Positions 33,895 through 41,423 of a stretch of 64,000 bases of DNA are shown here, piece after piece; position 1 is the first letter of the stretch, and the number at the start of each line of letters is the position of its first letter. The stretch is taken from contig NC_020284.1 of NCBI RefSeq assembly GCF_000340905.1, forward strand, positions 248,001 through 312,000, given 5' to 3'. The notes under the pieces are model-generated. The model had not been told where the DNA came from and did no database searches. It saw nothing but the letters and a program-made list of their open reading frames with translations. The DNA comes from Candidatus Kinetoplastibacterium galatii TCC219 (lineage in GTDB: Bacteria; Pseudomonadota; Gammaproteobacteria; Burkholderiales; Burkholderiaceae_B). The translations under genes and the position numbers were made by a program.

Positions 33895-33927
33895 GAATAT
33901 AGTTATTTAGAAGACATGAAGGTTATT

Positions 33928-33984
33928 ATGGCAAAAAAAATAAATCCCCTATCTACATGGATTATTCCGCTACCACGCCTGTAG
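33928..33984 (+). other. Native iscS start out of frame across an A8 tract (possible recoding site)
   Basis: ATG 33928, with GAAGG (33918-33922) upstream, begins ATG GCA AAA AAA ATA and would end after 18 codons at TAG 33982-33984. The iscS frame is one base behind: in it, the bases just before ATG 33957 read KSPIY, the conserved IscS N-terminus. Codons GCA AAA AAA contain the heptamer A AAA AAA, a canonical -1 slip site. A -1 slip, or one added A in the A8 run (33933-33940), gives [18 protein letters not shown]. Confidence 0.75.
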
Positions 33985-35147
33985 ATCCAAGGGTAGTGGA
34001 GAAAATGATACCATGGTTGTATGATAATCCTGGAAATCCTGCTTCTAGAAGCCATAGTTTTGGTTGGAAAGCTGAGGATGCGGTAGAGAAAGCTAGAATA
34101 GATGTTGCAAATTTAGTTAATGCAGATCCACGAGAAATTATATGGACTTCTGGAGCAACTGAGTCTAATAACCTAGCAATAAAAGGTGCTGCAAATTTTT
34201 ATTCTGAAAGAGGTAAGCATATCATTACCATTAAGACAGAACATAAGGCAGTTCTAGATACTTGTCGTAACCTTGAGAAACATGGATTTGATGTTAGTTA
34301 CCTTGACGTTATGAGTAATGGACTTCTAGATCTTGATTACTTTAGAGACTCTATTAGAAAAGATACTGTGTTAGTTTCAGTAATGTTAGTTAATAATGAG
34401 ATTGGTGTTATTCAAGATATAGAAGCAATAGGAAAAATATGTAGAGAGAAAGGGATTATTTTTCATGTGGATGCAGCTCAAGCATCCGGCAAGTTAGTAA
34501 TAGATTTGCAAAAAATGCCTGTTGACTTGATGTCATTTTCTGCTCATAAAGTATATGGTCCTAAAGGAATTGGCGCTTTGTACATTTGTCGCAAGCCTAG
34601 GGTACGTGTTGAAGCACAAATTCATGGTGGTGGTCATGAACGAGGACTTAGATCAGGAACATTAGCAACACACCAGATTGTTGGAATGGGAGAAGCATTT
34701 CGCATTGCTAAGACAGATATGAATACAGATAATGTGCGTATAGCTTCACTAAGAAACAAATTATTGAAAGGAATCTCTAATATTGAGGATGTTTATATAA
34801 ATGGTAGTCTGGAAAATAGCGTTCCACATAATTTGAATGTAAGTTTCAATTACGTGGAGGGTGAATCGTTAATTATGGCATTAAAAAACCTAGCCGTTTC
34901 TAGTGGTTCCGCATGCACATCAGCTAGTCTAGAACCATCATATGTACTGCGTGCTTTAGGGAGAAGTGATGAATTAGCGCATAGTTCTATTCGTTTTACT
35001 CTAGGTAGATTTTCTTGTGAAGATGATATTGATTTTGCTATTCAAGAATTGAATACACATGTTAATAAATTAAGAGACATGTCTCCTTTATGGGAAATGG
35101 TTAAAAGTGGTATGGATTTGGAATCTGTGCATTGGTCATCTCATTGA
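33957..35147 (+). CDS. iscS: cysteine desulfurase IscS (start disrupted)
   Basis: PLP enzyme delivering cysteine sulfur to IscU and tRNA thiolation. From ATG 33957 it has 396 residues: [16 protein letters not shown] Lys198 in [10 protein letters not shown], catalytic Cys320 in [14 protein letters not shown]. This start has no ribosome site and drops the conserved KSPIY strand just upstream. The frame upstream of 33957 back to a stop at 33900 has no ATG, GTG or TTG. The natural start at 33928 is one base out of frame at an A8 tract, so normal IscS may need slippage. The coding body is under obvious constraint. Confidence 0.93.
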
Positions 35148-36488: not shown

Positions 36489-38264
36489 ATGGAACTATTA
36501 CAAATATCTGAACCTAATGATCTACCTTGTGAAAGATCTAAGAAAACAATTCTTGGTATTGATTTAGGAACTACAAATTCTTTAGTTGCTTTTGTAAATG
36601 ATAATGATATTCCAGAGGTTTTATGTGATGATCTTAATAGATCACTGTTCCCGTCAATTATTGGTTTTCTAAATGATGGCAAAATTTTAGTTAGTCATCA
36701 AGCTATGGAATTAAAAAGCAATGAAATAATATCTTCCTTTAAAAAATTTATGGGAAGATCTTTTGATGATTCAAAATTTCTGCATTCTACTTATAAATTA
36801 TTAGACAAGAATGGTGTTTTAAAAATAAATACTTCATACGGTGAGTTTACGCCATTAGAAATATCATCCAAAATACTGGATCATCTATATAAGCTAGCCG
36901 TGTACAAAATAGGAAAAGATGTTAAAGATGTTGTTATTACTGTGCCTGCCTATTTTAATGAAACTCAGCGACAAGATACCAGGGCAGCAGCAACTCTAAT
37001 AGGCCTAAATGTGGTTCGTTTAATAAATGAGCCTACAGCAGCTGCAATTGCTTATGGTATTGATAATACTAAGGAAGGCATCTATGCTGTATTTGATTTA
37101 GGTGGTGGTACTTTTGATATTTCTATCTTAAAATTTACTGATGGTGTTTTTGATGTTATAGCCACTTCAGGTGATAATGCACTAGGAGGAGATGATTTTG
37201 ATTTGGCAATAGTTAATTATGTTATGAGTTTATTTCCTAGTAAAGAATTTTCTTTTGAACAAAGAAATGGTTTAATAAGAACAGCAAGAGAAACAAGAGA
37301 ACATTTATCATATAGTGATTCATCTATGTTTTATTTGCCATCAGAAATAGGAAATCCTATAGAGATAAGCAATGATATTTTCTACAAATTGGTGGATCCT
37401 TTAATTATTAGAATATCTAAATGCATTAAAAATTTACTACTTGATGCTAAATTAAAGACTGATGATATTTCTGGGGTCATAATGGTGGGCGGATCTACTA
37501 GAATGCCTATAATACGTAATTTTGTGGCTAAATATTTTAAGAAAGAGCCATTATTCAATCTTGATCCAGATAAAGTTGTTGCTATTGGTGCAGCTATATA
37601 CGGTGATATGTTATTGAATAGAGAATCCTTGAGTAAAGAGTGGCAACTATTAGATGTTACTCCTTTGTCATTAGGTATAGAAGTTGCTGGTGGATTGGTA
37701 GAGCGAATAGTACGTAGGAACAGTAAAATCCCTGTTTCTCACTCTCAAGATTTTACTACTATGAAAAATGGACAAACTGCGATGAAGATCCATGTTCTTC
37801 AAGGTGAGAGTGATTTAGTATCTAAATGTCGTTCTTTAGCTTATTTCGAATTAAATAATATTCCGGCAATGCCGGCTGGCCAAGCTCGAGTTAATGTGAC
37901 TTTTCAGATAGATGCAGATGGTTTATTACTAGTATCTGCCAAGGAGTCAATGACTGGCCTGGGATCAAGTGTAATAGTTAATAATTTGAGTAAAATGTCA
38001 CATGATGAGATAAGAAGTTTACTTTTATCAGACGATAATAAATCGGTAGATAAAGAAGATTCTTCAATATTCTACAAATTAAAATTAAAACTAGAGAATT
38101 TATTAGAATCAACAAACACAATACTTAATACAGATTCTGATCTTATAAGTGAAAATGAGTTATCTGAGGTGAAGAGTAAAATTATTAGCGCAAATAATTT
38201 GTTGAAGGTTGGTAATATTGATTTTGATAACTTAAAAATGATGTGGATTATTTTTCATCATTAA
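36489..38264 (+). CDS. hscA: Fe-S assembly Hsp70 chaperone HscA, C-terminally frameshifted
   Basis: Hsp70 that binds IscU's LPPVK motif and drives cluster transfer. ATG 36489 gives MELLQISEPN, the family start; an ATG at 36384 overlaps hscB and adds non-homologous sequence. The ATPase domain (GIDLGTTNSLVAF, DLGGGTFDIS, VMVGGSTRMP) and substrate domain (about 390-500) are intact. The frame ends LKMMWIIFHH at 591 residues, against about 616-620 usual. The missing 36-residue helical tail is readable in the -1 frame starting at an A5 tract (38234-38238), so one A seems lost. Confidence 0.93.
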   Translation: MELLQISEPNDLPCERSKKTILGIDLGTTNSLVAFVNDNDIPEVLCDDLNRSLFPSIIGFLNDGKILVSHQAMELKSNEIISSFKKFMGRSFDDSKFLHSTYKLLDKNGVLKINTSYGEFTPLEISSKILDHLYKLAVYKIGKDVKDVVITVPAYFNETQRQDTRAAATLIGLNVVRLINEPTAAAIAYGIDNTKEGIYAVFDLGGGTFDISILKFTDGVFDVIATSGDNALGGDDFDLAIVNYVMSLFPSKEFSFEQRNGLIRTARETREHLSYSDSSMFYLPSEIGNPIEISNDIFYKLVDPLIIRISKCIKNLLLDAKLKTDDISGVIMVGGSTRMPIIRNFVAKYFKKEPLFNLDPDKVVAIGAAIYGDMLLNRESLSKEWQLLDVTPLSLGIEVAGGLVERIVRRNSKIPVSHSQDFTTMKNGQTAMKIHVLQGESDLVSKCRSLAYFELNNIPAMPAGQARVNVTFQIDADGLLLVSAKESMTGLGSSVIVNNLSKMSHDEIRSLLLSDDNKSVDKEDSSIFYKLKLKLENLLESTNTILNTDSDLISENELSEVKSKIISANNLLKVGNIDFDNLKMMWIIFHH

Positions 38265-40304: not shown

Positions 40305-41408
40305 CTAGATGCCCATTTTTAAGCTTTCATGTATAAAGACATCTAAATTACCATCAAGTATCTTTTGCACATTAGATACTTCTACATTTGTTCTTAGGTC
40401 TTTAATTCTGCTCTTATCTAATACGTATGAACGTATTTGATTTCCCCATCCAACGTCTGTTTTTGAGTCTTCCAGTTTTTTTTGTTCAACTAATCTATTT
40501 CTCATCTCTAAATCAAATAGTTTGGATTTTAGCATTTGCATAGCTTCTGATTTATTTCTATGTTGAGATCTATCATTTTGACATTGAACAACTATACCAG
40601 TAGGATTATGTGTAATACGTACGGCAGAATCAGTTTTATTAATATGTTGTCCTCCAGCTCCACTTGCTCTATAGGTATCTATTCTTAAATCAGAAGGATT
40701 AATGACAATATCAAAAGAATCGTCTATTTCTGGGTATACAAATACACTTGCAAATGAAGTATGCCTTCCACCTGAAGAGTTAAACGGGCTTTTTCTGACA
40801 AGGCGATGTACCCCTGTCTCAGTTCTTAAATAACCAAAAGCATATTCTCCTACAATTCTAATTGTGGCCGATTTAATTCCAGCAACTTCACCTGATGATT
40901 CTGATATAATCTCAGAGCTAAAACCTTTTATTTCAGAATACCTTAAGTATTGCCTTAATAGCATCGACGCCCAATCTTGTGCCTCTGTTCCTCCTGCTCC
41001 TGATTGTATATCCAAGAAACAATTTAGCTGATCAGTTTTGTTGACGAACATTCTGCAAAATTCCATCTCTTTTATTTTGCTATCAAGTACACACATACTA
41101 TTTTCTATAGATTTTATTGTTTTAAAATCATTATCCGTTTCAGCTATATAAAATAGTTCTATGGAGTCATTTATTTCGTTGTGTAGTAATTCTAGAGTAT
41201 TTATAATGTTTTCTAAATATTTTTTCTCTTTATTTAAATTTTGAGTACAACTAATATTGTTCCATGAATTAGGATCTTCTAGTTCAGCATTTATGATATG
41301 CAATCTTTCTATTTTTTTATCGTACTCAAGATACCTCCGAAGATCTAATTCTCTTTGCTCATAGTCTTTAAGGTTTGTAATGACCTGATTTTTATTTTCT
41401 ATGTTCAT
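40305..41408 (-). CDS. prfB: peptide chain release factor RF2, no programmed frameshift
   Basis: Terminates translation at UGA and UAA. ATG 41408 has GGAG nine bases upstream and gives 367 residues; an ATG 15 bases earlier is in frame. The anticodon-like SPF ([11 protein letters not shown]) and peptide-release GGQ ([13 protein letters not shown]) are present. In many bacteria RF2 needs a +1 shift at CUU UGA C near codon 26. Here codons 24-30 read CGG AGG TAT CTT GAG TAC GAT, so the frame is continuous and the autoregulatory stop is gone while the Shine-Dalgarno-like stimulator remains. Confidence 0.96.
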
Positions 41409-41423
41409 TATATTAAACTCCAT

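Follow-up and report, generated by a model that had tools for sequence, protein, structure and literature searches.

The iscS gene of Candidatus Kinetoplastibacterium galatii TCC219, which lies in the 64,000-nucleotide stretch of DNA analysed here (the window), is one base out of frame with its own start in the genome record. The ATG that serves as the in-frame start in the nearest relatives is followed in this record by a run of eight As, one too few for the frame. Judged against the two nearest relatives, both of which are in frame, and against the intact, conserved state of the rest of the gene, the offset is more than chance and a real property of the record. The leading explanation, to which we would give slightly less than an even chance, is a homopolymer undercall in the iscS tract, the organism most likely having nine As.

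The iscS start in the record and in related symbionts

The focal genome is a single contig of 822,140 bases, on which the window covers 248,001-312,000. Read directly from the forward strand, a GAAGG ribosome-binding site at 33918..33922, part of GAAGGTTATTATGG, stands 5 nt ahead of an ATG at 33928..33930, which is followed by the A8 tract at 33933..33940. The zero frame from this ATG is one base off the iscS frame and runs for 18 codons (33928..33984), ending at TAG 33982-33984. The body of iscS (33957..35147, an IscS-subfamily cysteine desulfurase of 396 codons counted from ATG 33957) has its first in-frame ATG at 33957..33959 and its nearest upstream in-frame stop, a TAG, at 33900..33902. 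The positions given for the start region in the initial annotation are exact. The 18 in-frame codons between that stop and ATG 33957, looked at for a non-standard start, comprise one ATC and no ATG, GTG or TTG. Scored against an anti-Shine-Dalgarno sequence that we assumed, ATG 33928 pairs at -3.8 kcal/mol, an average value that 33% of 205 conserved ATG starts equal or exceed in strength. By contrast, ATG 33957 has almost no pairing (+2.9), and pairing at least as strong is found at 93% of the 205 conserved starts and at 98.6% of 2,258 internal ATG codons. The earlier claim that no other start carries a ribosome site is upheld by these values.

The stretch GAAGGTTATTATGG is identical in the focal genome and its two nearest relatives, G001 (810,172 bases) and G002 (820,037 bases). 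It is followed in G002 by ATGGC and six As (MAKNKFPIYMDYS) and in G001 by ATGG and ten As (MEKKNKFPIYMDYS), both in frame; a third close protein has the N-terminus MVKKNKFPIYMDYS, and in five more distant genomes of the genus the start is in frame without a long A-run. Given the identical upstream stretch and the in-frame starts of the relatives, alignment indicates that ATG 33928 is the ancestral start, that tract length drifts among species and that the focal tract is short by one A. The initial annotation had proposed aligning the site across related symbionts to see whether the shifted frame is conserved, and it is not. An ATG equivalent to 33957 is present in all eight genomes of the genus that were searched and is replaced by Leu or Phe in the ten outgroup loci printed, so this codon too is old. 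No second copy from the species was found that might reveal the true tract length: only P0001 is 100% identical among the 120 proteins listed of 8,000 scored, and none of the 21 loci from a contig scan, which possibly left out records of the genome itself, is titled Kinetoplastibacterium.

The gene otherwise looks like a desulfurase gene under normal constraint. Its product scores 704.7 bits with TIGR02006 (IscS cysteine desulfurase; curated cut-off 643.2), matching from model position 7, and it is the sole match to a desulfurase query across the focal genome at E <= 0.001. The dN on the focal branch is 0.020, a share of 0.274 of the three-taxon tree that lies at the 62nd percentile of 80 genes, and dN/dS against G001 is 0.052/0.73, values that point to normal constraint. 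The isc region reads iscR, iscS, iscU, iscA, hscB, hscA, fdx, where the names of the small genes are those we presume. A start at ATG 33957 drops the residues matching 1-6 of E. coli IscS; among the 120 IscS-like proteins listed, 118 have 403-410 residues, the exceptions being the focal protein and P0007, which comes from a 1,505-base contig. An AlphaFold2 model of the G002 protein is uninformative on the N-terminal strand because its pLDDT is below 50 at residues 1-3 and 8-16. The literature consulted on frameshifts in the genus Kinetoplastibacterium, on K. galatii and on S. galati proteomics yielded nothing on iscS.

Frame breaks elsewhere in the record and in related genomes

The comparison of reading frames took in 384 kb from the focal genome, 380 kb from each of G001 and G002, and 200 kb from each of two further genomes of the genus, G005 and G006. 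The minimum ORF length was 60 aa for most comparisons, and 80 aa with slightly laxer end limits in one. Among 340 G001 ORFs with a focal match, this survey, which is blind to breaks within about 5-12 residues of gene ends, found four single-A losses in sense A-runs and no insertions, all four in genes that are otherwise intact. Besides iscS (A8), the affected genes are RdgB/HAM1, RluB and an unnamed conserved gene of 310 residues. RdgB/HAM1 (L069:12541-13134, minus strand) has its start broken at an A7, which is an in-frame A8 in G001; 135 codons are left without an in-frame ATG, GTG or TTG, and dN/dS is ordinary at 0.119/0.629. RluB (L073:935-2350, minus strand), for which a pcnB-like identity was considered and discarded, is broken at an A7 around codon 25 of its N-terminal extension; the next in-frame start is a TTG 47 codons on, ahead of the S4 domain. 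Its tract is A8 in G002 and AAG AAA AA in G001, so that the loss of a G is also possible. The unnamed gene (L067:4083-4898, minus strand; no Pfam match) is broken at an A8 near its 3' end, affecting the C-terminal 37 residues, and its tail has a dN/dS similar to that of the body; the tract ends in A_AAA_AAG, which is among the strongest E. coli -1 heptamers.

Within the isc operon, hscA (36489-38264, plus strand) is one base short at an A5 (38234-38238) relative to G001 and G002 and loses its C-terminal ~34 residues. The matching codon is GAT in both relatives, and the base lost may therefore be a G, for which reason hscA was left out of the run counts and rejected as a fifth single-A loss. 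It serves as a comparison from the same operon and is not part of whatever happens at iscS. The hscA tail is still recognisable in another frame, where the usual stop is gone and the reading frame would overlap fdx. All five genes are in frame in G001 and G002.

Once decayed genes are set aside, single-base run losses number 0/335 in G001, 0/329 in G002 and 0/197 in G005, and the focal 4/340 differs from the combined 0/861 with P 0.006. The genes set aside in G001 were multi-lesion or weak ones, which we take to be KdsB-like, LptF-like and AmiC-like genes and a RelA-like N-terminus, together with a focal gene of 156 residues whose match consisted of just two weak pieces. Those set aside elsewhere were three adjoining decayed genes in G005, a PepP-like gene that is broken in the focal genome and already two ORFs in G002, and two cases from G002 itself, a UvrA-like gene and the site of programmed frameshifting in prfB. 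The counts also leave out spurious short ORFs, ORFs cut at the sample edge and starts that differ with no change of frame. The G005 trio (L097, at about 107-111 kb of the concatenated sequence) comprises neighbouring genes, presumably of lipid A synthesis, that have decayed in the PNG-M02 symbiont, while G006 has them intact. The UvrA-like gene of G002 (L124-L125), whose G001 counterpart has 1,839 residues, is interrupted by a GTGA duplication of 4 bases that does not lie in a run. G005 (816,901 bp) was taken as the PNG-M02 symbiont, whose sequence comes from Illumina and PacBio reads (PMC8229890). Most annotated pseudogenes in the newly sequenced genomes of that report are described as frameshifted, which means that frameshifts in themselves are no rarity in clean genomes.

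A very different picture is seen in G006 (821,813 bp), which is probably the 454-only assembly of PMC3616161. Here 12 of 190 genes, including DnaG, Der, MnmA, Dxs and PepN, carry frame-breaking gaps, both insertions and losses, spread along the genes; the 12 were hand-picked from the comparison rows, and some of their alignments also contain paired compensating gaps. Ten of the breaks fall in A/T runs, one (Der) by our reading beside a run and one outside any run. Run-length artefacts thus occur in records of the genus, and pseudogene calls in G006 warrant caution. The focal breaks are distributed otherwise. Each of the four run losses sits no further than 13% from an end of its gene, a placement with P 0.005 when set against 269 sense runs of at least seven As. 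No mid-gene single-base run loss was found in the focal sample, although 72% of those 269 runs are more than 13% away from an end. When hscA is included, the focal breaks fall nearer to gene ends than those of G006, with P between 0.002 and 0.010 according to the choice among three gaps in one G006 gene. All four broken tracts are of A and none of T, which given run abundance has P 0.26. A8 and A9 windows number 254 and 32 in the focal genome, the fewest of eight genomes. An inference of undercalling from such counts was rejected, four broken tracts out of some 380 A/T runs of at least seven being too few to cause the low counts.

That genuine single-base losses do reach fixation in this clade is shown by prfB. 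The programmed +1 frameshift site of prfB (RF2; 40305-41423, minus strand), near 41325-41338, is lost in the focal genome (CTTGAG). G002 keeps CTTTGA behind GGAGG, and the programmed-frameshift base is missing from G001 as it is from the focal genome. RF2 autoregulation would then be lost in two of the three sister symbionts.

Explanations for the missing base

If the tract was undercalled, eight As would have been recorded for nine in a 454-based assembly, and iscS would be an ordinary gene starting at ATG 33928 with its GAAGG, as in the relatives, with no need of recoding. The error would have escaped correction because the resulting ORF looks merely nine residues shorter. According to PMC3846528, the host project relied on Roche 454 and Newbler 2.3; the S. 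galati symbiont is listed there as sequenced earlier, and the symbionts are described as finished to a closed circle. We infer that the symbiont record was built on 454 reads and that the iscS tract was miscalled in it. Frameshifts that are unclustered and supported by BLAST are expected to be sequencing errors (PMC3711429). An undercall is favoured by the identical, in-frame start in G001 and G002, by the excess of single-A run losses over the relatives together with the 454 reads of the host project, and by the G006 artefacts, which show that such errors occur in records of the genus. Several observations weaken it: raw errors should fall anywhere, and the run losses lie near gene ends; the hscA loss, at an A5 and perhaps of a G, is not a typical undercall; G001, from the same project, shows no run losses, near ends included; and the focal genome, with the fewest A8 and A9 windows, offers fewer targets. 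Two readings fit the end-near pattern. Either curation cleared away obvious errors inside genes and spared those that merely shorten an ORF, or genuine losses persist solely at places where they do no harm, and the latter would argue against efficient slippage rescue, since rescued breaks should hit the middle of genes too.

It is possible, though we consider it doubtful, that the A8 is real, a one-base deletion since the split from the sister symbionts, and that slippage at the run yields full-length IscS. Either RNA polymerase would add an A, or tRNA-Lys would slip by -1 on A_AAA_AAA, with the ribosome site used for initiation as stimulator, and the slip rate would set the amount of IscS. 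Either event yields the expected N-terminus, as the initial annotation held, and this outcome is automatic, a -1 slip in a run always restoring one lost run base. The heptamer was likewise correctly located (33933-33939) in the -1 phase; its phase carries no evidential weight past run length because A_AAA_AAN occurs in all three phases of any A8. GAAGG lies 11 nt upstream of the heptamer's second base and is absent from the stimulatory SD motifs listed in PMC4066793. The 70 nt folded downstream gave no significant hairpin (z -1.53; equalled or bettered by 14 of 200 shuffles). A conserved, programmed slip site was therefore rejected, G001 and G002 being in frame and the third close protein beginning MVKKNKFPIYMDYS. 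Slippage as such draws support from the gene itself, the only desulfurase match in the genome and normally constrained, and from precedents in Blochmannia and Buchnera (PMC3017870, PMC5009743). In E. coli, shifted product amounted to 10, 40 and 63% from cassettes carrying 7, 9 and 11 As, polymerase and ribosome shares not being separated (PMC3711429), and in a reporter for E. coli RNA polymerase rescue was weak and detectable only from eight As or seven Ts up (PMC6260861). If the A8 is real, a fair guess would be that between about a tenth and a third of initiations end in slipped IscS. Against slippage stand the absence of the offset from the relatives and the lack of mid-gene losses in the focal sample, which efficient rescue should tolerate. 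An undercall is at least as likely as slippage, given three further single-A losses in the record, none in the compared stretches of G001, G002 and G005, and the 454 host project.

Sequencing error and weak initiation at ATG 33957 had both been named as alternatives, and they proved to be the right ones to weigh. A real A8 with IscS initiated at ATG 33957, nine residues shorter yet working, seems unlikely to us. In its favour, the codon is present in all eight genomes of the genus searched, the remaining protein scores 704.7 bits with TIGR02006 from model position 7, and the other focal breaks also lie at gene ends, where truncation is often bearable without rescue; perhaps ribosomes that finish the 18-codon ORF re-initiate there, the stop of that ORF beginning 25 nt past ATG 33957. 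Set against this are a pairing that nearly all internal ATG codons equal or exceed, the loss of the conserved x-P-I-Y stretch and the uniform length of the listed proteins. A dying gene, with a real A8 and little or no IscS made, is very improbable. The rdgB gene, which lacks an in-frame start in the record, suggests that loss may be under way for some genes, and iscS by contrast is a sole match with the remaining isc operon present and constraint normal. A fuller scheme can be drawn in which a real A8 has become established where the sole cysteine desulfurase gene begins and the initiation ribosome site doubles as a -1 stimulator. In a symbiont controlled by its host, slippage would then cap IscS, and hence the supply of Fe-S clusters and thiolated tRNA, at a fraction of full output, the A-run losses near the ends of rdgB, rluB and the unnamed gene forming a lineage-specific set. 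We regard this scheme as improbable.

The consequences differ with the length of the tract. If it is miscalled, then the tract lengths of relatives, the break counts of clean genomes and the positions of breaks within genes offer a means of telling record errors from recoding. If the A8 is real, slippage right after initiation would set the rate of an essential sulfur enzyme, providing a test case for the reliance of reduced genomes on decoding errors and a further instance of the bypassable A-run deletions already known. In either case, resequencing should come before any of the broken genes in this record is labelled a pseudogene or a recoded gene.

Comparison with known frameshifting and sequencing-error systems

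With -1 programmed ribosomal frameshifting of the dnaX type (A_AAA_AAG or A_AAA_AAA), iscS shares the heptamer and a purine-rich ribosome site at the spacing given above. It differs in that its heptamer is automatic in an A8, stands without a significant hairpin and is not conserved, and the 18-residue zero-frame product has no known use.

The slippage-rescued A-run genes of endosymbionts offer another parallel. Frameshifted genes with poly(A) tracts in Buchnera and Blochmannia are rescued by slippage (Tamas 2008 and Wernegreen 2010, as reported in PMC3017870 and PMC5009743), with 12-50% corrected transcripts (PMC5009743), and the endosymbiont poly(A) tracts counted were those of 9 or more As (PMC3017870). 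Like them, iscS belongs to an AT-rich reduced symbiont and has a one-base A-run offset in an otherwise intact, constrained gene. Unlike them, its tract has eight As and its offset falls at codons 2-4, and the sampled focal genome shows no mid-gene case; some of the Buchnera and Blochmannia genes keep their offset across lineages, whereas iscS is in frame in G001 and G002.

The focal breaks may finally be set beside the 454 homopolymer indels of finished genomes. Whereas the indels of G006 are spread through its genes, the focal breaks all lie near gene ends, and the hscA loss possibly falls outside a run. Like 454 homopolymer indels, however, they are single-base run losses, there are several in the one record, and 454 reads were used in the host project.
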